Positions 1 to 24,182 of a DNA stretch of 64,000 nt are shown here, piece by piece (the stretch's first letter is position 1; every line of letters begins with the position of its first letter). Below the pieces are notes generated by a model that saw only the letters and a program-made list of their open reading frames with translations, ran no database searches and was not told the DNA's origin. A program made the position numbers and the translations under genes. The DNA is taken from assembly GCA_031213475.1 (NCBI GenBank), contig JARUPZ010000017.1, positions 6,774,167 through 6,838,166 of the forward strand, in the 5' to 3' direction. The stretch comes from Nereocystis luetkeana. Its lineage: Eukaryota > Sar > Phaeophyceae > Laminariales > Laminariaceae.

Positions 1-1400
1 AATATACGCATACGTACGTATAGCAGTAGGTTTACAGCAGTTCAGGATGCCTAAACTAAGAAAACGAGCAACGAGAATGTCAGGCTGAGATTAACACAAG
101 AAACATTGAAATTCTGGATCCGATACCAAATAAATACTGAAGAAAAGAGTATAAAAACGCGCCCACATTCTCATTGCATAAATCCATCCTAAGCCAGCAT
201 TCCTGATTGGTATTGAGTGCACTTCGACTACTAGTGAAACACAACAACATTGCGATGGGTGGATAGCGGTGTCATCACATATGTTAGTAAGTGTAACTAG
301 TTACACGGCGACGGGTGCAGAGGGAATGCGGCTACAGAGGAAGCAGGACGGTAAGGGAAGACCCTCATATAGGTACGAATTTTTAGCAGTAGTATTGGGC
401 AGCTGCACCGCAACTACCTTCTGGGTGTTGCAGTAAAAAAACCTGGCAATTTATTAAAACAGCGAAGTCTTGTCATTCGACCATTTTTTTCAATAATGTG
501 AGGAGAGAACCCAGCACTTACTTGCAGCAGCAGGTACTAGGGTGGTAGGTGCTGGGGGGGTGGCGGAAATCACAGCGAAATTGGGAAAGGGCGGGTAGAA
601 AAGTGATTGCAGTAATGATCAGGTAAATACATCCATGAAGGGGTTTATGCTTAAATTTGGTCTGGGTTCGTCAAGTATTCAGGTCTGATTCAGTAGTATA
701 AATAGTAGATAGTGTGGTCCGGTGTCTGTTGCGCTCAGTAAAACACTGTATGCGCGAAGCTATGCCCAAATGCCAAGTAACCACATGCGTTAAAAAGCCT
801 CCCGAACCTCGAAAAGGCGTGTATCGGGATCACAGAACCTAAACATATTTGGTTCTACCGTGGAAAAAAGGGCTTAAAAAAAAAACGGCGGCGAATTCAA
901 AGAAAGGGCTCACAGGAAAACGCCCATTTCAAGCAAAATGTTGCACCAGCGCAACAGCGCCACAGTTTATTATATCCCTGGTTTGATTATTGGTAATTTC
1001 AGGAGTCGTTAAACTGTGATTTCCCTTCTTTTCGTGGATGGTGAGACTGATACACGCACTACTGTTGTACTTAGGCCGTTTCCTATACGGTTCAATTTTT
1101 GAGCTTCAGATTTTGACCCGATCGCCTTTTCAGATGTGAAGTTGGCAAATCGAAACAGCCTTCCTACCTACCAGGTATGCGGAAAAATCATATTTATTGT
1201 GTGTGTAGAGATTTGGTCAAACATCGAGACCAACGAACTGCTGTTTTTGTGGTTTGGCGCCGCGAAGAAACGCGCTGGGTGCGCTGCACTGTGTGTAGGA
1301 CCCAAGCGTCCGAGCCAAGGCTGACCATCTCTGGTCTGATGGCGAAGAGACGAGGCGAGTGCGCTAGAGCCACCTGTCTTGGTATTTTGGGTTCCATGTT
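1..1400. other. non-coding stretch, nothing recognised
   Basis: No frame is open for more than about 60-120 codons, and none of the small frames shows a recognisable domain. The overlapping frames at 1.14-1.62 kb on both strands look like chance openings in a locally GC-richer patch. No repeat, tRNA or promoter could be supported here. Confidence 0.5.
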
Positions 1401-1408
1401 TTGACTGA

Positions 1409-1435
1409 CTGCTGCTGCTGCTGTACATACAGCAG
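1409..1435. repeat. CTG triplet run ending in a CTGCTGT-ACAT-ACAGCAG palindrome
   Basis: Five CTG units run directly into TACATACAGCAG, so the last units can pair with the ACAGCAG that follows. The same junction, CTGCTGTACATA, recurs at 9.93 kb and 10.04 kb. This is a microsatellite with a shared flank rather than a gene part. Confidence 0.7.
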
Positions 1436-1676
1436 TGAACGTACAAGAACTCGTACGTATCCACGGAGTAGGTGCGTGCCGAGTGCGCTTCTCTTGGTCT
1501 CTAGGCCCGAGCCTGCGCCAGGCGACTGACGTCTGGCCACGGAGGGTCGCACCGCCCACCGCCCGAGCGTCGGGCGCGAAGCGACGCCGCTATACAGGTG
1601 TGTAACCTTCCAGCTCATCGATCGTTCTGCTGCTGTTTGCTGTCATGGATAACATCTTGAATTTAGAGAGCATCCC

Positions 1677-1767
1677 ATTTTTCGATTTGAAAACGTGATG
1701 ACCCAGGTCGTCGGATTTTGGCCCAAAATCCGACGACTTGGGTCATCGGATTCTCAAATCGAAAAAT
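1677..1767. repeat. 91-bp near-perfect hairpin
   Basis: Two 45-base arms meet at a single central base (1722). The left arm starts ATTTTTCGATTTGA and the right arm ends TCAAATCGAAAAAT. I count 40 of 45 positions pairing, with a cluster of four mismatches and one isolated mismatch. Folded RNA or DNA would be one uninterrupted stem with almost no loop. No target-site duplication is obvious at the ends. It could be a tiny foldback MITE or a hairpin RNA precursor; the sequence does not decide. Confidence 0.85.
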
Positions 1768-2960
1768 TTCCGGTCAGATTTTGCATATATATTTCGACTG
1801 CATATATATTATGATAAGCAGGGTCATTCGTTTTTTAGATCGAAAAATACAAATCTGAAGCTCGAAATCGAACCGCATAGGAAACAGCCTTACACAGTCA
1901 TTTATTTGGCAATAAATGAAATAAATGGTGATAAACATGAACAAGGTACCCAGTGCCACACACAAGGTAGATTAAGGGCCAGCCGACGTTTAATACCAGT
2001 AGTACCACCGCAGCTGAAGTACAGTAGGAGCGCGTTTTTTACTGTGTTCTTTTGTAGTAGATATCTGATGTCTTACCTCCTCCTACCTGCTATATATAAG
2101 AAAGAGCTGTGAAGGTAGCGCAGATATATATATAAGCTGGCCAGAGCCACAGGAATGTTGATGCTGGACAGGGCGCGCTGCTGCTTGTAGTTGACGATCT
2201 TCTGATTACTGCTAACAAATGGCACCCGAAACAAAGCGCACACTCAACAACAACAGCTGTCGTGATTTTGAACATCCGACCTGTTTGTCGTGGAGCGTAT
2301 GAAAATAACGTAATTAATATAGTGTTGATGCCCGATCTGTTATGTATTTCTACCTACTACTACTACTACTACTGTAGACTGATAGATAGGTAACCATATA
2401 TATATATATGTACATAACGATTAGACAGTTGACATGGGAACAATCCTTTTTGAAAAAGATAAAAACAGCAGCCCCCCGCGAGACACGACGCGAGCGCGGC
2501 CGTGGCTATATCCCTGGCAGAGACGGGAGGGGCGACCAAAGTGAGGCGCTAACGGGAAACAGCGCACCGAATTGTAACCTCATTGCGAGGTAAATCTTAA
2601 ACAACTAACAGATCTAAAAATATGCTTACCATTTTTCGCACCCCACCTCAATCAGCTATAATATGTGTACGAACAGGGCCTGGCCAGTCGAAATATATAT
2701 ATATATATGGGTAAACCATCCGAAGGCCGTATCTCGTGAGCCACAGCAAATAAATAAGGGCTTGGAATTTGGAGGCACTAACTCTCACAAAACACTGCAT
2801 GTACCAAACAAGAGTATATAAAGAAAGACGTTAGTTTTTCGACGAGCAAGATATCGGCGAAAACTCAAAACTACAAACCAACTGTTCAACACGAAATTCA
2901 TATTGGAATCGTATATCCCGATCAGGGCGAAAATTGGCGTAGACTTTTGGTCATTATAAT
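1768..2960. other. AT-rich non-coding stretch
   Basis: It contains short TA microsatellites near 2396-2410 and 2692-2708 and a (CTA/ACT) run near 2355-2372. The longest frame, 124 codons on the plus strand from 1738, begins inside the hairpin and has no recognisable domain, so I do not call it a gene. Confidence 0.45.
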
Positions 2961-2965
2961 CGGAG

Positions 2966-3172
2966 ATCTTTTTTCCCACTTTTCGACTTTTTGTTCGCGC
3001 AATTTTTCAATCTTCCACATTTCCCTGTTTTTGTTTTTCCTAAATATTGGAATGAATGTTAACAAACAGTTTTTTCCCCAACTTTTCGACCTTTTTTTCC
3101 CGCCATTTTTCAATCTTCCACATTTTCCAGGAGTCCTGTTCCTCGAATATTGGAATGCTAACAAAACTGATA
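2966..3172. repeat. tandem duplication, unit about 104 bp
   Basis: Two adjacent copies (about 2966-3068 and 3069-3172) share the order TTTTTTCCC, ACTTTTCGAC, ATTTTTCAATCTTCCACATT and then ATATTGGAATG. One strand is strongly pyrimidine-rich. The small frames seen on both strands are by-products of the duplication. Confidence 0.75.
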
Positions 3173-3439
3173 TTTTTGTTTCTGGAGAATTTCATGAATG
3201 AATAGTGACAGAACGCCTCCGTATATTGATACATACATGTCTCCAATTATTTCCAAAATTTGGAAATTATGGAAAAAACGCTCTCCGATAAGAATGAACC
3301 ATATACAGCCAAAGACCCTACGAGAAGGCCGACATATATGACTTTCATTGCCCAGTTCACCACCCATCAGGAGCTGTTGCCAAGACGCAATTTACCTACG
3401 TACGTACGTAAAACAAGTATGTACGTCAATTAATGCTGT

Positions 3440-5340
3440 TTTTTCTGCGCTCGAAATAAGCGGTTGGTTTGAGGTGTGGGCAGGAGGAGGTGGGCACACC
3501 GAACACTCCCTCAACGCTCGCCTCGGTGTCCGCAGTCGATGCGCGACGCCGCGCCTTGCCTAGCATTGTCGAAATGTCTACGGATCTGGCCAATTTTGTG
3601 TGCGACCCGACAACCACGGCCAACAGCGGTATCCACTCCCTCTTAGGTTCTCCTACTCCCCCAGGGCTATCGACTCCCAACTCATCTACGTCTTCTGACG
3701 AACGATGTTATCGGCACACGTCAACCGGCGTCCGCCGATCCCGGACAGTACGTACTTCGCCCTCCGTGGGTTCTGCAGGATATCCCAGACTCGTAGCTGC
3801 CCGCCCCGTATTGACCACACCACTCTCCCTGGGCCCAAGGACTGTTCTCCCGCGGACTTATCCGCGGAAGACTGGATCAAGTCACCAAGATTATGCCAGG
3901 AGCCACCTGTACCGACACCCACACCACAGTCAAGGCCAACTACAGGTACCGCATGTTCTTCTGAGTTTCTCCCTCGTCCGCATACGTTTAATGCTGTTGG
4001 CAGGGACTCCCAGGGTTCCTCGTCACGAGCGTCTCGTCGTCACCTACATCCCCCCGGGGCCTAGTCACAATGGACCTTACACTACACGTTTTCGGGGAGC
4101 GAAGCCGTCTCACCCACGTCTTCCCCGAACCCGTCCCAAAACACGTCCCCCTCTCCACTCCCCTCGACTTTGAGCCCCTCCCAAATTATTGTTTTCTGTA
4201 ATCATTCCTCGGTCTATTCCCAGTGGTATCCTTCGACGTTCACCATAGACAACGAGCACTACAACTGTGCGGAACAGTACATGATGTCGGAAAAGGCCAA
4301 GCTTTTCGGCGACACAGGAACTCGCCGGAAGATCGTGTCCTCTCCGAATCCCGGACGACAAAAACGCCTCGGCCGCTCCGTTTCCAATTTTACCCGATCG
4401 CTTTGTGTACAGTACCGGTACGACATCGTTTCCAAGGGCAAACACACCAAGGTTTCGGCTTCCACTTTACCACAACAACTCGTAGACACCGGCAACAAGT
4501 TTCTCGCCAAAGCAAGCCCTTACAAACTCGTCTGGGGCATAGACTTCACGTGTGATGATAGGCGGGCCTTACAACCTCTACTTTGGCCGGGACCCAACAT
4601 GTTGGGCGATATCCCGGTGAAGATCCGGCACCAGCTTGCCTCCCTCCCTCCACTCCCGCCCCCCCTTCGTGCCTCTCGCGTCTTACCCTCCGAAAATCGG
4701 ATTCACGATATCAACGCAACCGTCCCAGGTCCTACACCGCACTCCACGCTGGACCACCTACCGACGCCTTTTCGTCCTGAAGACACTCCGCCGCACGCGT
4801 TGGTCTCCGCCATTTTGTCCGGAGCTGCTCTTCTTTCTGCGCTGTCCTCACTCATTGCCGAACACGGACCCAGCCTCTCGAGCGGTATAGGTACCGTCGA
4901 CGACGCCTCCTTTACGACCAGGATTAAGGTACACAGTGGACCCTCCGCATCCAACCGCTACGGCCTAGTACCTCTACTGGATACCGGCTCTCCCCAGACC
5001 ATCATCTCCGCTGAAGCTTGGACCTGTATGAAGCGGAGCAACGCCGCGTCGGACGCCTGTGATCAACACGCTTCCCCTCGTTCCTGGGGTGGTTTTGGCT
5101 AACCCGCTCCGCTTCTAACTTCGATTTCCGTCCGACTCAGCATCCAGTTGTTTGTTACACAACAGCACTCCCTCCGAACTCGCCGTATGGGCGTGCATCA
5201 TGCCACGTGGGACTATGCAACATCCCCTTACACTGGTACGCGACAGCTGGATGCGGTTCGAACACCGCACGTACACCACCCTGCCTCGCCTCCCTTCTCG
5301 ACCACTCTTTGTCGAATTCACCCTAGCCACCCTCTATAAA
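3440..5340 (+). mobile_element. fossil LTR-type retroelement, 5' (gag/protease) part, with a NADAR domain
   Basis: Three regions appear in order on the plus strand. First comes a proline/serine/threonine-rich gag-like region (about 3.46-4.16 kb). A NADAR domain follows (about 4.19-4.64 kb). Last is a proline-rich linker leading to a retropepsin-like aspartic protease start with LLDTGSPQTIIS at 4974-5009, and then further protease-like sequence to about 5.34 kb that includes LVRDSWMRFE. The order gag-like, accessory domain, protease is what makes this an LTR-class retroelement, perhaps Ty3-like. No reverse transcriptase or integrase was recognised downstream, and no LTR pair was found. The copy is broken in several places and lacks its 3' half, so it is an old remnant. 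The region is GC-richer than its surroundings. Confidence 0.7.
4185..4637 (+). other. NADAR (YbiA-like, DUF1768) domain inside the retroelement fossil
   Basis: About 150 residues match the NADAR fold family by eye. The region opens with a short FCNHSSVYSQWYPSTF-type start, then the family hallmark YNCAEQYMMSEKAKLFGD, then RQKRLGRSVSNF, RYDIVSKG, the LVDTGNKFLAKASPY block, VWGID, and the closing GPNMLGDIPVKIRHQL. NADAR proteins act on ADP-ribose linked substrates: YbiA-type members are N-glycosidases, and some remove ADP-ribose from guanine. It sits directly upstream of the protease motif in the same element, so it is part of the element and not a host gene. This copy belongs to a decayed element and should be regarded as a fossil. 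Confidence 0.85.
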
Positions 5341-5344
5341 GGTA

Positions 5345-5860
5345 GTGTGTCGTGCCTGTCTTATCCAACACGACGTGGCAGTACATTGCCTACTCTGCTC
5401 ACTACATAACATCGTTGAATCTCTGTCCCGAGATGTTTTGAGCAGAGACCCTGCACCAGGTATTCTTCTACGGATTGACCAAGAGGCATGGACACTGATT
5501 GGGCTCGTTGTTGTCGGGTACAAAGAACGGTTTGATGTGAAGAACACATACATACCCCCACCTCCTCATTTTCACGGAGACCGAACACAGGGAGCAGGCC
5601 CATTCTCTCTGCAACACGAGAGTGTTCTCCCGCCATACTTTCTCGGAATCAATAACCGATTGAATCAACCCGGGCTGTACCGTTCGCGTGTACCGTTCGC
5701 GCCCATTGGCTGCGCTTGGGAAGGTAGCAGCACCGCCGACTTCCCACAATCTTTCAGGCAAGCCATACGTTTTGCAGCCGACGCCACCGTGAATGTTGCA
5801 CAGGCAGGGCACAGCTTGTTGGTACCACTGGCGGATAGAGCTTTCTTACCGAAGGGCTAA
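5345..5860 (+). CDS. unrecognised 171-codon open frame downstream of the retroelement fossil
   Basis: This frame starts MCRACLIQHDVAVHCLLC and ends DRAFLPKG. It is among the longer openings in the first 10 kb. No domain, signal peptide or membrane segment is convincing. It could be a host exon: a pyrimidine-rich stretch ending CTACAG follows at about 5883, which would suit an intron acceptor. It could equally be a chance opening, or sequence carried by the neighbouring retroelement fossil. I favour leaving it as hypothetical. Confidence 0.2.
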   Translation: MCRACLIQHDVAVHCLLCSLHNIVESLSRDVLSRDPAPGILLRIDQEAWTLIGLVVVGYKERFDVKNTYIPPPPHFHGDRTQGAGPFSLQHESVLPPYFLGINNRLNQPGLYRSRVPFAPIGCAWEGSSTADFPQSFRQAIRFAADATVNVAQAGHSLLVPLADRAFLPKG

Positions 5861-6941
5861 CCAACATCATTTTTGTTCTACAGTATGTTTCGTTACAGAC
5901 AGAGCTGCTGCTGTGGGCCATGGGATTGCTCGTCCGGCTAAGCAGGGCTCAGCGTATAGGTGGTCACCGATGCCAAATTAAGGACCTCCTCAAGCAGGAG
6001 CCTCAGGGAATCGCATGTGCATGTCTACTGTCGTTCAATGAATCTACTATAGGAAACATAACGCGTATAAAATTAAGAGATGTCAGGGTGCGCATAGAAA
6101 CCTTGGTACTGGGGAGTCGCCAGCTATGTTGGAAAGAGGTGAACGGTTGCGGCAGTGTAATAGTACTGGGCGAAGATGTGTTTACTCGGCGTCTCCCTCA
6201 CACCCTCGCTAAACAACCCCCCCCCCCCCCCCGCTGCAGCTCGATGCTACATCGTGCCAACTCACCATCAAGGTTTGTGCCCAGCAGCATCTTTGACGAC
6301 GACTCCCCAAACGATAATGTATACCCTCAATCTGGAGAACGAGTGTCTCCAAGAGAAGGTTATTTCCTCGTCGGGGGTGTAGCCATTGTGCTATGCTTCC
6401 TTGCGTGAAATGAACCATTTTAGCGTTTTCCGAAGTATCTTGTGCTGCTCGTGCGCAACTTCGAATACACGAATACACCTTATGAGTGTTTTGTCGCTGC
6501 CTACGGGTACGACTGCCGTTTGGCACACTTGACGCCCAGATGAACTCTATGACGAGCATCCCGCACTCGCGTGATGTAGTGTGCTGTAAGGAGCTGTAGC
6601 TGTCCGCGCATGTAGTGCAAACGATTAGTTGAGGGTTGTTTTAAGTCTCATCTTGAGTACCTCAAAACTCGACCAATTTCGACCACCACTCCTGTAGAAC
6701 AGCTTTTAGTCGAGATCAAGATCTCAGTTTAGAACCGGCAGGGGATCAATCTCGAGGGAAACACAAGCTGCTGTGATGATCATTCCATATGTTGCCCCTC
6801 GCTCTCGGGTAAGCCAGAACCAGGCGAAGTTATGAACGGAGCGTGCAAAACAAGCGATGTTCTTTCTGTTGATTAAAACACGAAGAGATTTGAGGAACCG
6901 GAAACCCGGGGACCAGAAGACGCTTGGGCGCCAACGTGGCC
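5861..6941. other. non-coding stretch with a 16-C run
   Basis: A homopolymer of 16 C lies at 6217-6232. Frames running through it (for example plus-strand 5920-6408) change their reading across the C run and have no recognised domain. Nothing else was identified. Confidence 0.45.
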
Positions 6942-7040
6942 TTAACCCCTTTAGGACCAGAGTCCCTTTTTCGGAAAAATGCAGTCTAATTCTACGTAGT
7001 TTGTCCCCAAGAGGGGACCGCGGTTGTAAAAAGGGTTCAA
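6942..7040. mobile_element. short TTAA-ended MITE, copy 1
   Basis: The element begins TTAACCCCTTTAGGACC and closes with GGGACCGCGGTTGTAAAAA before GGGTTCAA, giving imperfect terminal inverted repeats of about 25 bp. The core TTGTCCCC...GGGGACCGCGGTT is shared with the better-preserved copy at 10.17 kb. A TTAA end followed by CCC suggests a non-autonomous piggyBac-like element; this rests on end sequence only. Confidence 0.65.
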
Positions 7041-10000
7041 CGTATTTAACGGAATCAAATTTGGTAGACATATACCAACACCACGATTGAGCAGTTGGAA
7101 CCACGCACGCACCACATATTGGTATGCCCACAATATTCAACCGGCGCAGACCCTCCTGCGCAGGCGATGTTTCAGAACCCTTCCAGCAAAAACAGGCACG
7201 ATATAATTTTCAATGGACACCCGGCCAATTATCCGATTTCACGACAAAGAGAGCACAAAGCGCTCAGCGAACGACACACACACACACACGCACGCACGCA
7301 CTAGCTCAGCGGCAGCAGAAGGTAGCATAAGCTCGCAAAGCGAGCGGCCTTAGAGGATGGCTTTACGGCGGGTGCGGCTGTTGCTAGTAGTGCTATTACA
7401 TCCTCGGTTTATGTACACATACGTACTCTCGCACCCAGCTCTCCCACTAGAGCCGCCGCACACAACACTACAAAAACAGCAGCAGCACGAACAAGAGATA
7501 GAGGAACGCCACGATGGGCCTCGCGGTTGCAGCTTCTACGGCAACTTACCCCTGCTACAGCTTTACATACCAACCTCTAACGAGAAAAGCGACAAGACAT
7601 CATCTCCTCATCACAGCAAATAACACGGCAGAACAAGGTTCCCCTCCGCGAGGTGTGTAGGGGGGTGGCGCAAACGCGAAAGAAGACTCGTCGTAATAAA
7701 TCATGATCCTGTTTGAAAGTAGTAGCTGTATCTGTATCCACCCATCATTGACGTGAAAACACACACGCATATTTAAAAGGACTGACTATACTGTTTGACG
7801 AATTGATGTGGGGGCATTACCCCAATAATATACCCGTAAGTGGATGTTGATCCTGAAAAAATGACCCGCGAAAACAGTTCAATGTATGCGGCGTTAACGT
7901 AAGTACAAAAGAGTTGCCTGAGGTGGAGGTTGCGCCATAAAATGTGTTGTGACCGGCTCATTAAGGGACAGCAAATCTAAAAATATATATTTAAAGACAG
8001 CTTGATGCCCCATATATATCTTCATAATAGTATTGATTATAATACCAACTTGTGTCGAAACGGTATACTTCACATACTACTCCAAAATCAACTTTTGTAA
8101 GCTCCCTTCGTGCAAAGTAAAAAAAACGTATATCTCACATACTTTGAAAGTTCGATATTTTGTATACTGCCTCCGTGCAACGTTCCAAGATCTTGTCCTT
8201 TGGGACGTAATCTTCGAAATACGAAAGTGTTCCTGCCCTCCTGCGCTTTGAACATCCGGCCCTCGCCAACTTCCGCGGCTTCCCCCGAATTCCATCGAAA
8301 CATGAGTGTTTCGAGCTACCGAGGGCTTCCACTCAGTCTTCTCTTTGTACACTACATGCGCCGCGCTGTGGACTATTGCAAACAACAAAGCGGTACCTCC
8401 CTCTATCTCTCTGCAACAGCACTCAATTTTCAAACCACCCTCCGCATCTCCTTCTACCGCAGCTCACTTCGGTACACACACCATCATGCACGCTTGACAC
8501 GACAAGGTATCTTCGCCTACCAAAGCTTGTTTGTCCCCTCGCCTTGTTGGTGGAGATTTGTTTGAAGCTTCTGTTCCGCGTCATTATTTATTATGTATCA
8601 AAAACCCGCCGCATTATGTATTTTTCCTTGCCAATCGACTTCACCTCCCGAATGGAGCTTCAGTTCCGCCGCACTTTGCCGTTCCATATCGAAAACACGA
8701 TGCAGTATTTATTATTCACAGCTAATCTTCCACTTTTATCATCTTCTGGGCGCCAGATCTACACGTCCACATTTAACCAAGTAAGTATGCCGTCGACGAC
8801 AAGAAGATCTTCTAAATCGAAGGTGAACGTCACGCCAGAGTTTACCGTAACACCCGCGTGTTTCCGACTTTCCTTCGTATCCTACCGCGTTCTTCCCGAC
8901 TTAGGAGGTAATAATCGTGTGCCTCACCCAAAATTGAATACCGATCATCGTCCGTTCGTATAAAATGCGCCCGTATCTATTACCGTTGCAATAATCATCC
9001 GTGCGTAAACTTCGTCGAACCAAAATTAATTTGCACCTCCCCATAAGATATATATATATTGATATCCTACGAGCATCGTCCGGCCTTTGCTCAGGACGAC
9101 CCAATCAGGCACACTCTTCGGTCGATTAAACCACAATGACAGCCGTTCTTCGTGCGGATACATCTTGTACGGCATTTACATTTAAAATGTTCTGCCGCCA
9201 CTGCTTCTGTCCTCTCCATCATCCTCCGATTATTTGTGATAAAGTATGTTCGACATCGTTTTTATTTCAATATCCTAGCAGCACGGTCGTCTGGCCTCTG
9301 CTCTGACACCCCGATTTTACACATTGACATACATATTATTATCCTCTAGATAAAAGTAATAATATGGGCGACCGTTTATTCGGATACGTCGCGTACACGG
9401 CCATGGTTTGCGTCGACAACGTTTGACGTGGATCTTTTTCAATTATTTCTTGGCAACACGCCCAAAAAGTAATCGTTATAAAACATTTCATCTGCTACAA
9501 AATGGTACATACCTAGGTCTGTCTTATACGACAAAATGTTTGTATGTCCCGGAGTGGCTTTCTCATTTGATTTGTTCCTCCTGCTTCAGACGCCAGTCCG
9601 GCCAACGCCATACATCATCGACCAAGGTGTGAGCACCTTGGCACTAAGATGAGTGGGAGCCCTTAACCAGCTTTATCTGTCCAGAATTCATGGCGGGATC
9701 GTTGAGTTTGTCGACCGATGTCATCCACGCGCCCCCTCCGCCAGAAATAAAAAAACATTATTAACGATATGTACGTATTAAAACAAAGTAATTTTTCCAT
9801 CCACGCGTGTACAATCTAATGACATGTTTTTATGCAGGAAGCCTCAACAGCATATATATGTGTGATGCTGCGATGAACAGCGTAGCCTGGTAGAAAAATC
9901 CGACTACAGCTGCTGCTGCTGCTGCTGCTGCTGCTGTACATACAAATAAATGGGGCCCCGCAGCAATATTGAAAGTGTATGCATGCATACCATTCGTAGC

Positions 10001-10165
10001 TTCGTGCTGCTGCAGCCATGGCTCCATTGTATGGCAGCAGCTGCTGTACATATACGTGCTGCTGTAGACTCCCCAACGAAAATGTCGGTAGCGACCGATT
10101 TTGTGTAATTTCAGAGAGGGAGCAAGTTCACCAAATAAATATATATTATTGCACAAATCATGATG
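7041..10165. other. mostly non-coding AT-rich region with microsatellites
   Basis: It holds a CA/CGCA microsatellite at 7273-7301. There is an 88-codon plus-strand frame (7357-7623) with a leucine-rich start and a QQQ run but no recognised domain. Overlapping plus-strand frames at 8.1-8.96 kb also have no recognisable product. Two similar short segments occur near 9063-9097 and 9270-9306 (TATCCTA...GCAC/GCATCGTC...GGCCT). I see no supportable gene. Confidence 0.4.
9910..9937. repeat. CTG microsatellite
   Basis: Nine uninterrupted CTG units lead into CTGCTGTACATA, the same junction as at 1.42 kb. A related CTGCTGTACATA lies at 10041-10052, next to further CTG units. The glutamine/alanine/serine runs in overlapping frames are products of this repeat. 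Confidence 0.85.
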
Positions 10166-10266
10166 TTAAGCCTTTTAGAACCGCAGTCCCGTTCTTCTGG
10201 GGACAAACCAGTCAAATTTCAAGTAGTTTTGTCCCCTAACGGGACCGCGGTTCTAACAGGGGTTAA
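10166..10266. mobile_element. short TTAA-ended MITE, copy 2
   Basis: Both ends are TTAA. The left end reads TTAAGCCTTTTAGAACCGC and the right end, read inverted, TTAACCCCTGTTAGAACCGC. The terminal inverted repeats continue into GTCCCGTT on each side. This is the same family as 6942-7040 and clearer in its ends. The total length of about 100 bp leaves no coding room, so a helper transposase elsewhere must have moved it. Confidence 0.75.
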
Positions 10267-10895
10267 AGGTCATATTACCTAAAGTGACTTCCAAAGTGAT
10301 TTTCATAAATTATTTATGACACGGGGCCACAATTAGTGTCCATCCTCTGTATTGGCTCACCTATTGTGGCTCTTATATTACTGACAGGAATCTGGCCCGA
10401 CTTCCGTGGGGGCGGGAGGGCCTTTTATTCCCTAGTACAATATATCCCCACTCAAAATAACTGTTTCTTGGTGCTCAGGGTAACATAAAGAAAGGTTTCA
10501 CAGATAAATAATGTTCGAGAATATATTTTATAGGGTTTCCCCGTAAAAACAGAAATACCTGTTTGATGAAACTCGACGACAGTTTATCGGCGACCAACAC
10601 CCCCACTCACCGACGCAACGCATTATAAACGACTCCTACAACAATCAAAACTACTCGTCGACATCCAGCCCCTAACCAAGACACCGCCAAGTGAGTTTGC
10701 CGGACAATGTGACTCCTATTCGAAAACCGTCAGTTTGGCGAAACCATTCTATACGAATCTTACGACTCGTATCTTGAATGGTAGATGCATGGGTGGGGAT
10801 TCTATTTATTTGCGGTGGATGCGTCAAATGAAAAAAAAGAGGAAAATATGACAAAACGGGCCTTCCCATTTATTTCACGAAAAGGCACGAGCCGT
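10267..10895. other. non-coding spacer before the long-arm element
   Basis: No coding frame of note and no recognised repeat. It ends where the inverted arm motif GTTGCGAGATAGG first appears. Confidence 0.5.
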
Positions 10896-12134
10896 GTTGC
10901 GAGATAGGGGGTCCCCATAGTTAATATTAAGGGGATCCCATCATATCTTAGGGTGTTGCGAGATAGGGGATCCCCCTAGTTCAGGGATCCCTTTTTTCCT
11001 TCGGGGATCCCATCATATCTTAGGGGATCCCCTCATATCTTAGGGGATCCCCTTGTTTGATATTTCAATATCATCAATGATATGGAAAGATCACCGAACA
11101 TGGTTAGGAGATCCCTTTCAGCCTTAGGGGACCCCCGCCTTGTGCGTGCCAATCGACCATTTGATATAGCGTCTCCATTCGGTTTTTCTCTTCGAGATTA
11201 TCGTCAGCATTATTATTAGGGGATCCCTTAACACTATTTGGGTGGTATTCAATATCATCAATGGATTATTCAAAGATTGTCGAACACGCTTAGGGGATCC
11301 TCAACAGGCTTAGGGTATCCCCACCTTGTGTGTATTGCGTGCGCACCCAACATGTACGAATCGGATGTGACATGGCGTCTCCATTCAGGTTTTTCTTTCA
11401 AGATTGTCGTCGGCATTAAGGGGTCCCTTGACACGATTCGGGTGATATTCCCATAATATCATCATTGATATTGAAAATTATATTGGAATATCAACCACAT
11501 GGTGTTAGGGAATCATGTTGTTGGGGTGTTCTAACCTCAACGCGAGAGAAGATACTCTCCAAGCCTATAAGATTCCCTGAGCTTATTTTGAGGGGTAATA
11601 CCCAGTTTCACGCTGAAGACCATGTAGGTGTAATCCATGAACATGGTGGTAGGGGATGATGTTGGTGTTAGGGGATCATGTTGTTGGAGTGTTATAAACC
11701 CAACCCGAGAAAGGATATTCCCCAAGCCTGTTGGGTATCCCGCAAGCCAATTATTATTAATAGGATCCCTTAAGCCTCTTTTGAGGGCTAGTACCCAGTT
11801 TCACGCTGAATACCATGTAGGTATAATGCTTGAACCCCAAGGCCAATAATAGGGATCCCGTACGACAAAAAAAAAAGTCGTCGATCATTGGGGGATCCCC
11901 AGACTCACAGCGGGCGATTCCCTTAGCCTGTTGGGAATCCCACAAGTAAAAAGTATATCATTAACCGTATCAATAACACTGCGATCCTGATTTCTTGCTG
12001 AATGCCATGTAGATATTACGTTATGCATCTACTACGGGGGGCAAAGTAAATAGGACCTGCGATAAAGACGAAACCCTTTACATTCGCCTAATCTTACCAA
12101 CAACGTTTTGTCCTATTTACTATATACACCCGTA
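10896..12134. repeat. left outer arm with GGGGATCCCC palindromes
   Basis: GGGATCCC or GGGGATCCCC, often preceded by CATATCTTA, occurs again and again here and in the matching right arm (18.3-19.37 kb), more than a dozen times in all. Each is a perfect palindrome, so it reads the same in both arms. Iterated subterminal motifs of this type are where transposases of several DNA-element families bind; that role is inference here. Short frames in the arm are not genes. Confidence 0.7.
12033..12134. mobile_element. short MITE nested in the left arm
   Basis: It begins TACGGGGGGCAAAGTAAATAGGAC and ends, read inverted, TACGGGTGTATATAGTAAATAGGAC, so it has roughly 25-bp terminal repeats bounded by TA. 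The equivalent element stands at the mirror position in the right arm (18310-18431). The TA boundary would suit a mariner/Stowaway-type MITE. Confidence 0.6.
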
Positions 12135-12149
12135 ACAACAGCCAAGGCG

Positions 12150-14170
12150 GAGTGAGGTCCCCTAACGAGCTCCCTGTGTACGGCGACTCTGCCACACGTT
12201 GCTCCCTTCCGTGCCTCTCCGACCACGGCAATAACCAGCCCGCCCGGTCTATTATATCAACAATGATAATCGTGGGTCGTTTGTTAGTGAAAAGCCAGGA
12301 AAACATGAAATTTTCCCTTTCCCCGCACTCGACTGTCCAAGGCCTCCCCGTTTCATTTGCTACCTGCGTCTGTCCTCCCGACCACATGAAAACCAAACGT
12401 GGCCCCTCCCCTTCTTGAACAATGGTAATTTTTGCGGACTTCTACAATGAGAACCTCACCAAATATGTAGGTTAGAGCACCTCACCCGCAGCTCCGACCC
12501 CTGCGTGCTGCCCGTGTCCAGCACATCCGCCACTGACTCCCCGGTTTAGTCTGTACGACCGCAGGAACGAACAACCAACCCACTCCCCCTCCTGGGTAAT
12601 GATAATTTGCTAGTTTACTGTCGCATTATAAGCCAGCCTCATATCTACCAATGGTAGCCTCAAATACTTTACACTCGCCTGTAGGTCCTATTCGCGTCTT
12701 GCCTACCAGACGAACAACCAACCCCCCCCTCTCCTTGATGAACAAGGCTCATTTTTTCAAGAATTGCCGCAATGAAAAACAATCATCATATTGCGACTTC
12801 GAGAGGGTACACCCTCGCCTGACACCTACAAGTTGTCCGCCTCCGGTACCTCGGCCGTCTATTCGCCATTCCTGGCTACCTGAACCTATATTCCTCACTA
12901 CTACAGGACCAACAAACCCACCTGCAGCTGCCAAACTGGTACAATGCGCAATTATACAGAGCTGCCGCAAAGTAAACCCACCTTGACATCTTAGCCTCTG
13001 GTACCCTATCCTCGCCTGACCCCTACGCGCTGTCCGTGTGTAGTACCTCGGCCACTCATAGGGCCCTTTCCCGTCTTCCCGGCCACACAACCACTCAACC
13101 CACACGCCCCCCTTCCTTATCTGTGCTAAGTATTTGCGGTCTAATGAGATTAAAACCAGCATGATATCAGCGTTCGAACACCCCGCCTTGAACGGACACT
13201 ACGAGCTGTCCGTCTCTACTACCGCGGCCGTTCATTCTCCGACATTCATTGCTACCTGCCCCTGTCCTCCAAAAAACAGAAGCAGCAATCACACCCCCTT
13301 TGCCTTCCCCATCACGGCTCAATATTTTACGGATTACTTAAAATTAAAACCCAGAATAGTATTTACGTTTCAATACTCCAGTACCTCGACCCTTTCTTAG
13401 CCATTAATTGCCAACTGCGACTCTCTTTCCTCTCTACAGCAACAGCAAACCCACCCGCTCCCCGATCGTAACAATGAGAATGTGGCGGATCCCGGCAAAG
13501 ACAAGTCAGCCAAATATACTTGTTGGAATAGACCACCCTCGTCGGACCCCTACGACCTGCCCGTTTACTGGATAATTAACCACTCATTGCTCCCCCCTGT
13601 GTCTTCCAGAACACAGGAACAGAGAATCCATCCGCGTTTGTTCCTACAATGGCAATGTTGGGGACTTCAGCAAGAAGAACCAAGCATAAAAAAAAACGAT
13701 CGGTTTACTCCCCCGTCCCCCGACTCCTGACCAGGTGATTTTAACAGGATCATATCTTAGCTTGGAAATCCCCACCCTTGCCCGACCTCTGACGTGCTGC
13801 GCGTTCATAATATGCCCATTGGTCCTTCCCGCGTCTTTCCGGCCACACGAACAACACAACCACCAGCTCCGCTTCCTGAACAGCGCTGATTCTGAGGATT
13901 GCTCAAATGATAACGCCGCGTGATACTTGAGCTGGTATACTCCAAACTCACTCTACTTTTGATGTCGTTCCCGTGTACAATACCTCCGCCATCCATTGGT
14001 CAGTTCCCCGTCTCCACCGAACAACGGAACAACCCGCCCGCCCGCTCCACTTCCTCAACGGGGACCGTATGTTGCCAATAGCGGTATTTTAAACACCGCA
14101 CAATATTTAGGTTCGGATACCCCACCCTTGCCGGACCCCGACGAGCTGCCTGTGTAACTCCGCCATTGCT
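12150..14170. repeat. degenerate satellite, unit about 165-195 bp, about 11 units
   Basis: An anchor of the type GAGCTGYCCGTGTNNAGTACCTCGGCC returns near 12.17, 12.51, 12.84, 13.03, 13.21, 13.56, 13.80, 13.97 and 14.15 kb. Between anchors come a YCCCGTCTTCCCGGCCACA-like segment, a CCCACCCGCTCC segment, an AACAATGATAAT segment and CACCCTCGCCTGACCCC. The same units lie inverted at 17.35-18.30 kb. Frames of 60-137 codons inside the array are side effects of the repeat. Confidence 0.7.
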
Positions 14171-15700
14171 GATAGTGAAAATAAGTTTATATGGATATTG
14201 GTGACTTTGCACCCTGGACATTCCGGACATGTTCTCGTCCTAACTTCGCTTCATACGGACCGTGAGTTTGCACCCCAAGTAAGCAACGCAGGATATCCCG
14301 ATGCTTCGACACGCCTCGGTCCAGGCACCGAACGGGTCCGAGGCAATGACGACAACTCCATCGGACGTCGCTGCTGACCCGCTCGATACTGAATGCCCTC
14401 TAGTGTTGCCACGCTCGGATGTTCATGTCTTGCTCGGGTTCGCCTGCTGGGTTGGTGCAGGGTAACGAGCAAACGGTCATTCACGAACTATCTCTTCTAT
14501 ATTCGAAAGCTGGCACCTATTCCTCGGTTCTGTGCCACGACACAATTTGTGAGGGTTGCAATATAATTCCCGTAGACTAATCACGATATTGCATGAAACC
14601 TAACTCGACGACGCCGATGCATACCCCTTATTCTGCGTATGTCAATGGTCGTCCAGCATAAGTTGGAACGTGGGAGAATAAAATGCTTGCAATACCTCTG
14701 ACATAATTGTCCCAACTTCGATCTTGCTTGTGCGCCATGCATGCGCTCCACGGATCGTCCCCAATCCGGCAAATGCTCGGTCCAATCAGCGAACGAGGAA
14801 AACATATTCCATCCCCCATGTTCTTGAGTGACGGGTCGCGAGGAACCAGCGACATCTATTCTCTTGACGGGACGATGTTGCGCATCAGTGTCAGTCACTC
14901 GTGTACTTCACGTGCAAGGTACCTAATATTAAACTACAGCATCTGCGCAAGCCCAGCAACACATACAGGCGGAACCGAAAGGGGTCACAATCGGGGGGGA
15001 TACAGGTGTACTGATGTTCGGGGTTGGGGGGTGAGGGGTATCTGAGCAAAAACCTTCCTTGAGTAAAGGTCAGACGACTCGGAGTATGTGTTGAAATACC
15101 CACCTCAGGCGACCCCACATGCACCACAACCCCTTCGATAGGCAAGTGAGTCGGTAGGAGGGGGTTGAATCGTTGCGTAGGGGCCTTACCATCTACGATC
15201 CACGCATCTGACTGGGCGGACAGCGCTCCGTCCGATATAGCCTCGAGACGTGTGGAAGAAACCTTTTGTTACCTGTTGGAGTCCTGTGCGTTGCACAGTT
15301 GGGGAGTATCCGCGGATCGGACAGACAGGCGCAGGTTTACTGGAAACGACGCGTGGTGGAATGGGATAATATTTTGGTCTGCGGTTAGGCATGGGACATC
15401 AATCTCGGTTTGAGCGTACTCATCTCCTAAGACGTTTTTACCATATGACGGTTTGTTCATATTTGCCGTCCACAACTGAAAGGTAAAGTTCACTTAAAAT
15501 GTGACGTGCGCGAGGTCTTACGTCTTAGAAACGTACGATGCTATACAACATTCCTTATCTTCATAGGACGTCAACCATATAACCGCCTCATAAACCATGA
15601 GTTATCCGTTTGTTGTACTACAGACATCGCTGCTTAAGCCCTTGGTCTGATCTCCGTTATTTCCACCCCCTCGACGGGAACAACGAAGCTAAAATATATA
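14171..15700. other. unpaired core of the long-arm element, left part
   Basis: Several frames of 70-112 codons overlap on both strands. None has a recognised domain, and no two join convincingly. I see no supportable gene in this stretch. Confidence 0.4.
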
Positions 15701-16480
15701 CTATATGTTAATGTAACCTGCCTGAATTTCCTCTTTAGCCGTCTCGAGCATCTTAGACATGAGTTCCTTACGACCGGTCCCGTCGCCGTCGTCGCCCTCC
15801 AGACGTTGAAGAGGGTCGTTCACAATTATGATGCGCGTGTTGACGAAAAGAAAACACTGCCGTGATTCCCTCAGCTCTTGTACACACTCCCTCAAGCGCT
15901 CTGGGCCTGGTGACTCGGCGATACCCCACACTAATGCAAATAATCCTCTGCCAGCCGTACTATGTGCAACGGCGTCGGTGATCGACTTTTGCGTCCATCG
16001 TATCCACCAGTGCGTACGTCCGGTGATCCGGGAAATGTCGCTTCTTCGGGATCGGCGCATTTTCGCTTCTCTTGGATTCCTGGAGCGCTTCCGCACTATC
16101 GCCGAATAAAGAAGGGACTCCTGCGGGTCTTTCTCCCGCACACGACACAGCCGTGTTAAGCGAATAGGTGGTGTTCTCGATGTTCCGTTCATCCTGTTCA
16201 ATCGGCGCGTGATGTGTAGAAACTAAGGTTGCCGGAAATGCTCGTCTCCTCATCTGCATTTTCGGGTTTTTACACAACCCGGCACAGACTGCGAGCTGTT
16301 TGTTTGCCTCCTTCTCAGAGGTTCGTGTGGCAGAACCCCACAGACCGTTTCCGAAGGGCGAGCGGTAGCAACTCCTGGACCTTTTCGGGGGCAATGTCAC
16401 GGTGTCCATCATTGTTGATGGTGAAGGCGTCCCATTCCTCCATTAATGAGCCAAAGCAAGCAGTGATGTGTTTTTCCGAT
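15701..16480 (-). pseudogene. degenerate coding-like remnant inside the long-arm element
   Basis: Reading the minus strand, three adjoining frames look protein-like one after another. First is a segment with EEWDAFTINNDGHRDIAPEK (about 16.48-16.32 kb), then the frame at 16412-15960, then the frame at 16201-15701. The last contains RECVQELRESRQCFLFVNTR and ends KEEIQAGYINI. The switch between frames suggests one ancestral gene with frameshifts. I do not recognise the protein: no DDE/D triad, zinc knuckle or helicase motif is evident. Its central position makes a former transposition protein the obvious guess, but that is inference from place alone. Confidence 0.35.
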
Positions 16481-16884
16481 CTGTCGCAAAGACGATTGTC
16501 AGCCGTTTAATATACATTCCGTATTGTACCACTGGTACTTCTCTGATGTGATTTCACTTCGTCCCCAACGAAGACAATCTGTAGGGGTGAGGTTCGAAGG
16601 AGCCTGTTATCTAACCAGCGCGCAACCCCATCGCTTCACCACCGTATGTCAAGAAATAGGTTCACGGGGTGTGTGTAAGTTCTGCCTATCCCCTGTCGTT
16701 TTTGTGGGCTATCGATGGGAATCGGGTGCGATGGCGGTTAATTCACTGAGGATACGAGCACCTTTTCATATTTCGACTCCTCTTGTTATCGTGTCCTGTT
16801 TGTTTTTTTTTTCCTCGTATCTTTCTTGTCGTGAGGACTTAACCTTCACTTCTAAAAAGCGAAAACCTTTTTTGTTTTGTTCGC

Positions 16885-17170
16885 AATGTTCAGGGCTTTT
16901 CGCGGGTCGTGACCCGACCCGCCGGTAGGGTGAGAGGGGGTTTCAAAATGTCGCGGGTCCGGTCGGGTGGGGACGTGTCAACCTCTTTCAAAATGTCGCG
17001 GGTCGGGTCGGGTCGAGGCAGCATGTCAACCTCTTCCAAAATGTCCCGGGTCGGGTCGGGTCGGTTCAAAGGATTTCGAAATCTCGCGGGTCTGTTCGGG
17101 TTGGGCAGGATGTGTTGAAAATGTCACGGGACGGGTCCGGTTATTGACCGGTGAAATACAGGTCATTCCC
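16885..17170. repeat. degenerate GGGTC-rich tandem repeat
   Basis: AAAATGTCGCGGGTCGGGTC recurs at about 60-bp spacing with a CAACCTCTTTC spacer, then decays toward 17.17 kb. It produces repeated FKMSRVGSGR-like strings in one frame. One strand is G-rich with runs of GGGTCGGGTCGGGT. This marks the boundary between the unpaired core and the right satellite. Confidence 0.7.
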
Positions 17171-17349
17171 GGGTCAGGTCATCATGACCCGCGTTATTGT
17201 TCCGGCTGCCCCCCCTCGTCCGACTCGCGGGCCTGGCCAACGGATCAGTGTTTATTTATCACGTGTGCATGTACCTACCGGATGGCCGCCTTTGTGACCG
17301 GCGGGTCCGACATTGCACACCGAAAACAAATCACAGTTTCCTGACCAAA

Positions 17350-18300
17350 GGCTTCGAGCGTGGAGATACCGGCGCAGGGCGCAATGCCGGATGTACTGGA
17401 CACGGCCAGCGCGTAGGGGCGTGAGTGGGTGGGGTAGTACTACCTAATTACTGTGACGAGTTTTCCTAGCAGCGTTAAGCACAGTTAGCATTGTATGACA
17501 AGAAAAGTGGGCGTGTTTCAACGATGATCGGGAAGACAGACGCATTGAGCTGTGTACTCCGGATTGTTTGAACAACGACCAACTACGTGTGGGGGTCGGG
17601 CGAGGGCGGGGTATACCAGCGAAGATCTTATCCTAGATGTTCTATTCATCCATACCCAAAATTAGCATTGCTGACGAAGGGGAGCGGGCGGGTTGGTTAT
17701 TGCCGTGGTCAGGGTGTCACGGAAGAAACAATAGAGGATGAAGTGCACACTGGCTGGACCTAGAGGTCGTTCGCTGGTGGGATGTGTCGACCTGAATGTT
17801 TTTTGGTAGCATTCAGGAAAATTACCGCAGTTCAGGAAGGGGAGTGGACGGGTGTGTTTTACGTGTGGCCAGGAAACCAGGCTCAAGTAGGAATAAACAG
17901 CATATTTTCGGACACAGGCAACGCCAAGGATTCGGACGCGGGCGGGGTATTCCAACCTATGTATTGTGATGGGTTCCCTTAGCAGCGATCCACGAAATGA
18001 GCATACAGGGCGGAGTAGGGGAATGGGTTTTCTTGCTGTTTCTGTATTTAGGAGGACAGACGCAGGTCGCAATGAAACGGGGAGGCCTTGGACCTCATAC
18101 CCCGTAGGAGTCTGTCGAGGGTGGGGTAAGGGTAAACTACATGGTTTCCTGGCTTTTCACTAAAACACGACCCACTATTATCATTGTTGAGGAAGGGGAG
18201 CGGGCGGGTTGGATTTTGCCGTGGTCGGGGAGGCACGGGAGGGAGCCACGAGTGCCGAAGCTACTGTACACAGGGAGCTCGTTAGGGGACCTCCCCCCGC
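17350..18300. repeat. right-arm satellite, inverted relative to 12.15-14.17 kb
   Basis: About five to six units of the same ~175-bp satellite lie in reverse orientation. GGGGAGCGGGCGGGTTG is the inverse of the left CCCGCCCGCTCC segment, and GGGCGAGGGCGGGGTAT is the inverse of the CCTCGCC segment. The array is shorter than on the left, so the two arms have lost or gained units independently. Confidence 0.65.
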
Positions 18301-18309
18301 CTTGGCCGT

Positions 18310-18431
18310 TACGGGGGACCATAGTAAATTGGACTAAACGTTGTCGGTAAGACCAAACGTTGTCGGGAAGATTTAGGCGAATGCACAGGTTTTTGTTTTT
18401 ATCGTAGGTCCTATTTACTTCGTCCCCCGTA
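18310..18431. mobile_element. short MITE nested in the right arm
   Basis: It starts TACGGGGGACCATAGTAAATT and ends TACTTCGTCCCCCGTA. It is the mirror partner of 12033-12134, with an additional internal repeat of an AAACGTTGTCGG segment. Its presence at the same place in both arms shows that the arms share it by descent or by conversion. Confidence 0.6.
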
Positions 18432-19365
18432 GTAGATGCATAACGTAATATCTACTTGGTTTTCCGCATGAAATTACGATTGCGGTTTTACTGATACCGT
18501 AAAGAAGATCCTATTTTCCTTGTGGGATTCCCAACAGGCTAAGGGGATCGCCCGCTGTGAGTGAGGGGATCTCTCAATGACCGGCTATATTATTGGTCCT
18601 ACGGGATCCCTATTTGACGTAGAGTTCAGGGATTATACCTACATGGCATTCAGCATGAAATTTGGTACAAGTCTTCACAAGAGGCGTAGGGGATCCTATT
18701 GGCTTGCGGGACCCCCAACAGGCCTGGGGAATATCCTCTCTCGCGTTGAGTTTACAACACTCCAACAGCATCATCCCCTATCACCATGTGGTAAATATTC
18801 AATTTTCATTTTCAATATCACTGATGATATTGGAATATCACCCGAATTGTGTTAGGGGATCCCCTAATGCCGACGATAATCTTGAAAGAAAAATATGAAT
18901 GGAGACGCCATGTCATCTACGACTCGTACATGTTGGGTGCGCACGCAATACACACAAGGCGGGGATCCCCTAAGCCTGTTGAGGATCTTCTCAGCGTGTT
19001 CGGTTATCTTTGAATAATTCGTTGAAAAATATTGAATATCACACAGATTGTGTTAAGGGATCCCCCAATAATGCCGACGATAATCTCGAACAACCTAACT
19101 GTATGGAAACGCTATATCAGATTGCCGATTGCCACGCACAAGGTGTGGACCCCTTGAGGCTGATGGTGATCTCCTAAGCATGTTCGGTGATCTTTCCATA
19201 TCATTGATGATATTGGAATATCAAACAAGGGGATCCCCTACGGTTCGTAGGGATCCCCTAAGATATGATTGGACCCCCGAAGATATGAGGGGATCCCCTA
19301 AGATATGATGGGATCCCCTAAAGCAAAATGGCTCCCCAAACTAGGGGGATCCCCTATCTCGCAAC

Positions 19366-20390
19366 AGGGGGGTGGACTGGGGTCATGATGCAACACATAT
19401 GCCCGACTTAAGCATCGCTTCTTATCCACGTTTGCTTGCTTCAAATTCAGCGCTCCCTCCCTTCTGATATCGCCTGGGGTCTACGTAGGAATACGCTATT
19501 TTCACGAGGTAGCGGCAAGATTCTGAACATGCAATAGGTTCTCGGAAACCCCTGACTCGATTTCCAACATATGGTTTCCGGAACATGACACACGACTTTC
19601 TACTGCAAACATAAATGGAACTGCGCTTCGCGCGACCTTGAGCGGGTGTGTGAAAATTCGAAAAAAGTACTGGCATAACAATCTTACTTGTAAAACCCCT
19701 TGCTCTGACATCAATTCCTTTGATTGGCGTAACACCGACGTGCGCCAGCCCGGCAGTCAGTATGTTCTTGAGAGCTCGGCCATGGGTCAAAGAAAACAAT
19801 CATATCCGATTACGAGGTATCTCTCCGCCGTCTTTTGTTACGAACCAAATACCATCAGGCCCCAGGTTAGCCAAAACGGGCTACCCTGCCACGCAAAGCC
19901 TCTCGTCAACACTTGACCGCTGATCACGCGACCGGCACGCGAAGGTTCTCCCTATCGTATTCGAATGAGTGTTTCGCGCGATTTGCATTTCGTCGTCAAA
20001 GCATACATACGCACACACATATATACTGGGACCACGGAAGGGAAAAAAATAAAATAGGGGTATATCTACCCCACTTTGATATAGAACGGGGGGTGGGGGG
20101 GGAGGGGGGGGTGTAAAGAAACCATTCCCGCAGGAAGTGCCCGCGCGTCCCCTGTACCTGTCTAGAATCCGGTTTTGACCCACTGGCAAGGCGCCCAAAA
20201 CCAATGCACAGCGCGCACAACTTTTTATAATATTTGGTGTGGCGAGTTTTGAGGCTGACAGCACCGTGGCGAAGGAGAGTGCACAAACTTCCCCTCTTTT
20301 GAGTACAATCAGGGCCAACGGTGTGACGCCACAGACCTGTTACATTGATGAATTACACCTGTTTTTACGCCCCTTCCCCCCCTCGCTCGG
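19366..20390. other. non-coding spacer
   Basis: Minus-strand frames of 125 (19422-19799) and 145 codons (19881-20318) have no recognised domain, and the second is stretched by a G/C homopolymer-rich patch at 20088-20112. A CACACATATATA microsatellite-like patch lies near 20.01-20.03 kb. No gene can be supported. Confidence 0.4.
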
Positions 20391-20394
20391 GAGA

Positions 20395-20640
20395 TCCGTG
20401 GTCAATTGTCAAATGACTGAGACAAGCAACAAATGAGTACCCCCCTGAACACGTGCTTCGCGTTAAGCTCCATCGTGAATCTACCCCGGCAGTCCCCCGT
20501 GAGGTCATCAATGTATGTTCTAAGAGTGACGCGCTGTGCACGGGGGCAAATGTGAAAGGCTCCGTGCAGCCCGAGCTTGCGATGACGCGATGTTGAAGAA
20601 AAAACAAAACTATCGTCTCTCGACACGGAAATATAACAGA
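20395..20640 (-). other. unrecognised coding-like segment P, left copy
   Basis: On the minus strand this segment matches 25480-25800 on the plus strand. Shared protein-level strings in one frame are GCTEPFTF, RAQRV.LR.YI, C.GRFT.EL.AKH and LICCL. The two copies differ by a 7-base indel near the start of the block, but downstream most differences in this frame are third-base or conservative. That hints at past coding. I do not recognise the product. The best local frame is 20402-20737 (111 codons). Confidence 0.35.
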
Positions 20641-20989
20641 CATAGGCCGTCCCTGGTTTGGAATCATCTATCATCCTATTACAAATCCGTGGAACGTTCT
20701 GAGGGGTCCCATTCCAAAGAACAGAAAATCGCAGCATTTTCCCTACGTCTTTTCAGACCATCCCTTCATTTGTTCTTCATAGGTGAGATCTTCACGGACG
20801 TTTCGGTGCCACCCCTGCCCTGCCCCTTCACGGTGGCGGAGCCTCGAAACATAGGTAGTTGTCTCGAATAGAGATCCTCACGTGAGGAGGCCGACGCAAT
20901 GAAGGGGCTACCCCTACTACAGCACGCTGAAAAACAATATAAAACAAAGTGCTCACTAATCCATCGTTTCGCAACGCTATAAAAAAAAA

Positions 20990-21181
20990 GAAGTGCGTGT
21001 TGAATCACCCTTCAATCGTGGTGATAACTGTTCCCCACAACAACTAAAACAAAACAACGTTCCGCACGCTGTTGCCTGCTCTGTAACGTTTTACTGTTCA
21101 GTACAAATGAGCTTTGACATGTGCACAGAGCACTACCGTTAACTTCAATCTTCGCGAGACTGCCAAAATCGACCGCGCACG
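20990..21181 (+). promoter_or_regulatory. conserved 5' leader of the left GDPHM gene copy
   Basis: From about 21003 the sequence matches, inverted, the region just upstream of the right copy (about 27874-28013). Shared blocks include ATCACCCTTCAATCG.GGTGATAACTGTT, CCCACA.CA.C and CATGT.CACAGAGCAC. It is not open in a common frame in both copies, so it is probably untranslated leader, promoter or intron. Confidence 0.45.
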
Positions 21182-22120: not shown

Positions 22121-22930
22121 ATTGCCGATGGAAGAGTATGGTAATCTGACCTTGTTGGAGGTTTTGTCGCGTCGTTGTCCAAGGACACCCGAGACATGGT
22201 TCCGGTGCTTTACTCTAGCGTGGCTGGTGTGTCCCATGTACCTCGGGTGACGTGGTGCGTACTTCGGCTGTTGTGTCGTGGGAACAGTATGAAGCGAATC
22301 CCGGTAGAGACAATCGTCCAAGACTAAAAGTGCCGACGTGATTCATCCGACGTTTATATAACGAGCAAGCAGCAACGAGGGGCAGACAATACCGCAACCT
22401 GGCGAGTAACGAAGCGGTGGCGCGCTGTTGCAGAATTCGTTTGATTTATAACAAGCCAACATACGCCCCACTTCGGTACGCGGGAGGCGCGTCAAGACCA
22501 CATAGCAGGCACCAGGTATCAATGCCTGCTCTGCAGGGACTGATCAGTGCAAACGTTAGAGGGGTGGGCGCAATGGAAGACCTCGACAAGAGAAGCTAAA
22601 TCGAACCGGTCTGCACTTCCTCATCGTAGTATTTACCGGCATGCCGCACGTATTCACGTACACCATGGACTAAGTGCCCTTCTGGCGTCTCGAGGCCGTG
22701 GGAAACCTTGATGATCGTAGCCTTTCAAATAATTCGGTGGGGATGGGGGTTGCTCGAATGAAATAAAGAAGGGTTGGTAAAAGCCTAGATAAAAGGAAGG
22801 AACCCACATTTTGTTTGGCACAGACAGGGGAGCAAGACGTTGTATGATAGAAGGCCGTACGTGCTCCATTTCATATCAGTAGTCTACGCAAGTTTTCGCA
22901 TGCGTTCTGTCACTTACGGGCACTTATTCT
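22121..22930 (+). other. downstream flank of the left GDPHM copy, duplicated inverted at 26.17-26.88 kb
   Basis: Blocks such as GGTAATCTGACCTT.TTGGAGG, TTTTGTCGCGTCGTTGT and AGAAGGCCGTAC.T.CTCCAT occur in the same order downstream of the right copy. So the duplicated unit is about 1.9 kb and includes roughly 0.8 kb beyond the stop. The match includes no long shared reading frame. Confidence 0.6.
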
Positions 22931-23099
22931 CGGATGCGAGGGTTTGTTTAGGTGTCGAAATGGGCAAGACGCGAAGCAGTAGGTGCTGTATAGCATTCAG
23001 TGTGAATGCCCAAAAGGGAGCGAAGATCTTTGAATTTTCTTACACATGGCTGAAGAGGTATAACTACAAGAGGTTAGACATGCCAGTGGTCGCATAGAT

Positions 23100-24180: not shown

Positions 24181-24182
24181 GC

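Follow-up and report, generated by a model that had tools for sequence, protein, structure and literature searches.

Retrotransposons of brown algae were reported to carry NADAR domains in 2025 by Dinatale et al. (PMC12477816), in whose account a Ty3/Gypsy lineage of Ectocarpus, exemplified by Gypsy-12_Ec32, has the domain in Pol, with a suggested role in processing of the RNA intermediate. NADAR in a retrotransposon Pol is thus already published and the idea is not new. The same source describes divergent NADAR domains in the ORF1 proteins of Tx1 LINEs of Crassostrea gigas, and NADAR domains are also reported in polyproteins of RNA viruses (PMC9503650). In these accounts the domain was likewise recruited by RNA-templated elements, yet C. 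gigas Tx1 elements and RNA viruses belong to other element classes, and we infer that separate acquisitions are likely. The YbiA-type NADAR of Phytophthora nicotianae and NADARs linked to DarT1 are described to hydrolyse ADP-ribosyl-guanine (PMC11543638). According to that study, E125 of the P. nicotianae protein is the YbiA-defining glutamate and contacts the distal ribose, W89 and D130 contact the ligand, and exchange of D171 of the E. coli C7 NADAR, the counterpart of E125, for Ala or Asn results in loss of efficient hydrolysis. As host protein, Ectocarpus Esi0017_0056 has been characterized as a stress-induced protein of 391 aa with a NADAR domain at residues 132-291 and two predicted introns, accompanied by the paralogues CBJ32535 and CBJ27468 (PMC7922944). 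About 130 residues precede its NADAR domain and 100 follow it (PMC7922944); given the NADAR-Gypsy lineage, Esi0017_0056, with its two predicted introns, could conceivably derive from the N-terminal part of such a Pol by domestication.

Here we analysed a stretch of 64,000 nucleotides of the brown alga Nereocystis luetkeana (referred to as the window), in which a preliminary description had placed a well-conserved NADAR domain between a gag-like region and an aspartic protease motif of one broken retroelement. Our main reading, to which we assign a probability of about 0.77, is that the locus is a decayed 5' pol fragment of a retrotransposon with NADAR ahead of an aspartic protease, most likely from, or related to, the NADAR-bearing Ty3/Gypsy lineage of Ectocarpus. 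Support for this reading comes from the evidence for NADAR itself, an in-frame protease-like motif, the decay of the locus and a lysine, K149, in the active site. The features in question are as follows.

3699..4061, + strand: open stretch of 121 codons, in frame with the NADAR ORF, without known domain (from stop positions; no Pfam match)
4065..5102, + strand: NADAR-bearing ORF of 345 codons, stop to stop, with a retropepsin-like motif near its end
About 4203-4637, + strand: NADAR domain, ORF residues 47-191 (from the Pfam PF08719 profile, fold and residues)
4974-5006, + strand: LLDTGSPQTII, resembling an aspartic protease active site and in frame with NADAR (assigned by motif)
5119..5409, + strand: ORF holding HPLTLVRDSW (5221-5250), in a frame other than that of NADAR

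The NADAR domain in ORF 4065-5102 is real, with profile, sequence and predicted fold in agreement, and its presence, as stated in the preliminary description, was confirmed. In the Pfam profile search, PF08719 matched the ORF with E 1.9e-30 and 106.7 bits (curated cut-off 35.1), and the sole PDB sequence match up to E 1 was 8bau, the NADAR of P. nicotianae (E 4.7e-10), while the family profile run against the PDB retrieved two distinct sequences at E <= 0.01, namely 8bau and YbiA (2b3w). The AlphaFold2 model, based on 90 aligned rows, reached a mean pLDDT above 90 in every ten-residue block of residues 41-190, and a Foldseek search of the PDB returned 8bau (E 1.3e-9) and 2b3w (E 1.5e-6) as the sole entries with E <= 0.001. 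Against a viral library, Foldseek yielded 32 matches with E <= 0.001; 25 of these are named, 19 being called NADAR (phages and giant viruses), and three replicase polyproteins 1ab are found among the other named ones. A profile score above the cut-off and a NADAR fold, which together define the NADAR superfamily (PF08719), are accordingly both present. At 345 codons, the ORF is moreover unsurpassed among the open frames of the window, and none of 40 simulated windows reached this length (longest ORF per window, median 240 and maximum 334).

What is new here is the catalytic state of the NADAR domain in the window copy. Strongly conserved columns were defined as those with at least 90% conservation among 89 relatives, yielding 42 columns; eight of them (N67-M74) fall on the search pattern NCAEQYMM, and their conservation is in part a product of how the relatives were selected. 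The window NADAR agrees at 36 of the 42 and loses six, compared with a median disagreement of one among the relatives. Three of the 89 relatives, however, equal or exceed it (L131, L128 and L057, disagreeing in 12, 8 and 6 of the 42 columns, respectively), which speaks against regarding the copy as unusually decayed. The fold is that of P. nicotianae NADAR, and equivalents of its residues E43, K50, K75, R79, R93 and W133 are present, including the active-site Glu and Lys (E43/K50), which are retained as E70 and K77; both are common to all 89 relatives, with the E70 column lying inside the search pattern. Y84 of the P. nicotianae protein corresponds to F109, a Phe shared with 87 of 89 relatives. 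The window copy differs from P. nicotianae NADAR by E125 to K149, D130 to K154, W89 to C114 and D86 to R111, as well as by its fusion to a protease-like stretch. The first three of these correspondences, taken from the alignment with 8bau and the residue numbering of PMC11543638, concern positions with described ligand contacts. K149 (codon AAA at 4509) occupies the position of the glutamate that defines the YbiA subfamily, where the relatives carry Glu in 88 cases and Arg in one; C114 stands where Trp is found in 89/89, and K154 where Asp is found in 87/89, a change that needs at least two base changes. D160 takes the place of a Gly present in 83 of 88 relatives, so that, relative to the relatives' consensus, the substitutions read W114C, E149K, D154K and G160D. 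Description of the domain as well conserved consequently holds for most of the strongly conserved columns, but not for the catalytic glutamate.

Because the catalytic Glu is exchanged for Lys, the conserved Trp for Cys and the Asp for Lys, the window NADAR is probably inactive, i.e., not a hydrolase, as judged from its residues. Residues 148-160 account for eight of the strongly conserved columns and for four of the six losses; the hypergeometric value is 0.008, or 0.018 when the search-pattern columns are dropped, for a block picked after the fact. This clustering, together with the two changes needed for Asp to Lys, leaves some room for a different history, in which the retroelement NADAR would be, lineage-wide, an ADP-ribose-binding pseudoenzyme whose active-site strand had been altered before this copy died. 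We consider this decidedly unlikely; if true, the domain could anchor Pol, or the particle, on chromatin or RNA that is ADP-ribosylated.

The reading of the locus as a decayed fragment of Pol further depends on the protease downstream of NADAR. LLDTGSPQTII lies in frame with NADAR. A six-frame scan of the window with a strict form of this motif gave one occurrence (0.017 expected), corresponding to a scaled chance expectation of ~2e-5 over the 153 codons that follow NADAR; with a loose form it gave three (0.88 expected; ~1e-3 when scaled to the ORF tail). Both forms were picked with the sequence in view, and the chance figures are therefore optimistic. Scanning of the window with a relaxed PROSITE-like aspartic protease pattern yielded no match, 0.15 being expected. 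HPLTLVRDSW at 5221-5250 has a putative likeness to the end of a retropepsin, and ORF 5119..5409 may encode the remaining half of the protease beyond a frame break. Pfam searches up to E 10 listed no family for either protease-candidate piece. In the PDB, the first piece gave insignificant matches, including polyporopepsin (E 0.49), an antibody chain (0.89) and an entry named PROTEASE (1.4), and those of the second piece, likewise insignificant, were all urate oxidase-type proteins. AlphaFold2 confidence drops below a pLDDT of 50 over ORF residues 268-345, the protease-motif stretch included. The aspartic protease motif noted previously is thus present in the NADAR frame, with a possible second part in another frame, but Pfam or significant PDB matches are lacking, and we refer to it as a likely, motif-based putative protease.

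In a rival explanation, a host NADAR gene, for instance one like Esi0017_0056, became a pseudogene, and the DTG motif after NADAR is a chance occurrence. In its favour, three or more such NADAR proteins are known from Ectocarpus (PMC7922944), the protease is without profile support, and searches around the window copy detected neither RT nor LTR. However, the protease motif shares the open frame of NADAR, for which the chance expectation is about 1e-3 at most, and an origin from a host gene is regarded as unlikely. Esi0017_0056 itself resembles the window ORF in having N- and C-terminal extensions around NADAR and differs from it by two predicted introns, with no protease mentioned in the portion of PMC7922944 that describes it.

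As to the remainder of the element, the copy is the broken remnant that it had been taken for. In-frame stops at 4062 and 5100 bound the NADAR ORF, and the single stop at 4062 separates it from the stretch 3699..4061, which may represent a linker or the beginning of Pol. Codon-position GC is mixed, with the third positions of the 3699..4061 frame being highest over 3601-3900 and not over 3751-4200, and shows no clear frame through the region. A gag-like region upstream of NADAR, as proposed initially, was rejected, since Pfam searches up to E 1 gave nothing for ORFs 3460-4173, 3699-4064 and 3992-4201. At the same limit, no Pfam family of any kind, RT, RNase H, integrase and chromodomain included, was recognized over 1201-4202, 5101-8102 and 8001-11002. 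These scans comprised nine + and nine - strand frame pieces with stops read as X, a format that may miss a copy broken by many frameshifts, and over 4203-5100 the NADAR frame was the one run against Pfam at whole length. No direct-repeat pair flanks the region as LTRs would, although old or truncated LTRs could escape such detection, and there is no second copy of the NADAR ORF in the window. The hallmarks of a NADAR-bearing Ty3/Gypsy element, i.e., RT/RNase H/integrase, LTRs and a chromodomain at the integrase C-terminus, were hence not recovered here, and the surviving part is at most a fragment of the start of Pol.

Loss of these parts complicates assignment to an element class, and divergent NADAR domains in Tx1 ORF1 proteins (PMC12477816) might suggest that the window NADAR stems from another class of retroelement, such as a Tx1-like LINE ORF1 as in C. 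gigas. Endonuclease and RT were not found in the scanned pieces, which argues against such an element and makes this origin very unlikely. The protease-like motif bears on it as well: to our knowledge, Tx1 LINEs are without an aspartic protease.

Long inverted repeats span 10954-19366, with arms in several pieces (mainly 10954-12378 and 18051-19366) that are about 72-90% complementary and enclose about 6 kb, perhaps representing a large DNA transposon or foldback element; Pfam searches up to E 0.1 returned nothing, either for 12378-18052 (the three + frames) or for 12378-16001 (two - frames). Another long inverted repeat consists of 20311-23182 and 25437-28243, 69-77% identical, whose arms hold ORFs of 325 aa (21143-22117, + strand) and 337 aa (26884-27894, - strand) with starts related in sequence. 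Neither of these two ORFs nor the three + frames of 20300-28303 gave a Pfam match. A short repeat is found at 6968-7043 and 10195-10270, the two copies being 71% alike with GGGACCGCGGTT in common. Comparison of ten long ORFs of the window with Pfam resulted in two matches, both under their cut-offs, and three further stretches gave none, the Pfam scans taking in part of the window. Neither an Rfam scan of the window, at the gathering threshold, nor a tRNA scan returned a match.

Relatives of the window NADAR were collected by a pattern scan of viral contigs, where 60 stretches matched and all 60 encode a relative, and of prokaryotic genomes, where 77 of 88 matching stretches do. None of these 137 viral or prokaryotic loci has a DTG/DSG motif in its NADAR ORF, and the protease motif is also absent from the ORF lists of two viral loci (L011 and L023); the combination of NADAR and protease motif is therefore not a general property of NADAR proteins. 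No other retroelement copy was present in the two collections scanned. A tree was calculated from 90 rows, comprising the window and 89 of the 137 loci picked for diversity and length (L127, L133, L134 and L137 were omitted as short); the relatives in tree and alignment are all viral or prokaryotic, with no eukaryotic NADAR in the set. The window branch measures 3.38 changes per column compared with a median end branch of 0.64, exceeded by one row (L131, 3.75), and as the window row is a long branch outside any starred set, no donor can be named. These data bear on the view that the locus reflects recent bacterial or viral contamination or transfer, with no retroelement involved. The relatives are indeed prokaryotic and viral, which is in line with such an event, in collections made up of viral and prokaryotic sequences. 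Yet identity is low, reaching 44% over at least 130 residues, the branch is long and without a starred set around it, the surrounding pieces contain no Pfam domain, and two long inverted repeats are located within 25 kb, and we judge this explanation extremely unlikely.

A decayed fragment of a retrotransposon Pol thus accounts best for the locus. Like the NADAR-Gypsy elements described from Ectocarpus, it combines NADAR with pol-type parts, here with NADAR preceding a protease-like motif in frame; unlike them, it is broken, and RT, RNase H, integrase, chromodomain and LTRs were not found. Gypsy-12_Ec32 and the window copy are likened by description, not by sequence identity or by the order of NADAR and protease, which the published account gives in a figure only. 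Besides this figure-only order, the points that speak against a pol fragment are a protease without profile or structure match, the lack of an RT and of a second copy in the window, and the lack of another retroelement copy in the two collections. Recurrence of NADAR in related elements, which the preliminary description had raised as a check, is accordingly borne out on published Ectocarpus data (PMC12477816) rather than on data computed here.

In an intact element, cleavage of the Pol polyprotein by the protease would probably set the NADAR module free. By analogy with tested relatives, the released domain would work as an ADP-ribosyl hydrolase inside the virus-like particle or close to it, and its substrate might be ADP-ribose on guanines of the element's nucleic acid or another ADP-ribose conjugate. 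The window copy would stand outside such a cycle, with its frame broken, polymerase and integrase missing and the catalytic glutamate lost. Reversal of host ADP-ribosylation, which had been envisaged for the element lineage, appears unlikely for this copy because the residue equivalent to E125/D171 is a lysine.

The locus adds a probable further example of a retrotransposon NADAR, and it cautions that a strong NADAR profile match does not imply an active hydrolase. That retrotransposons have captured an ADP-ribose enzyme is a hint that modification of nucleic acid or protein by ADP-ribose may play a part when algae and their mobile elements come into conflict, and the published Ectocarpus NADAR families are the place to test this idea.
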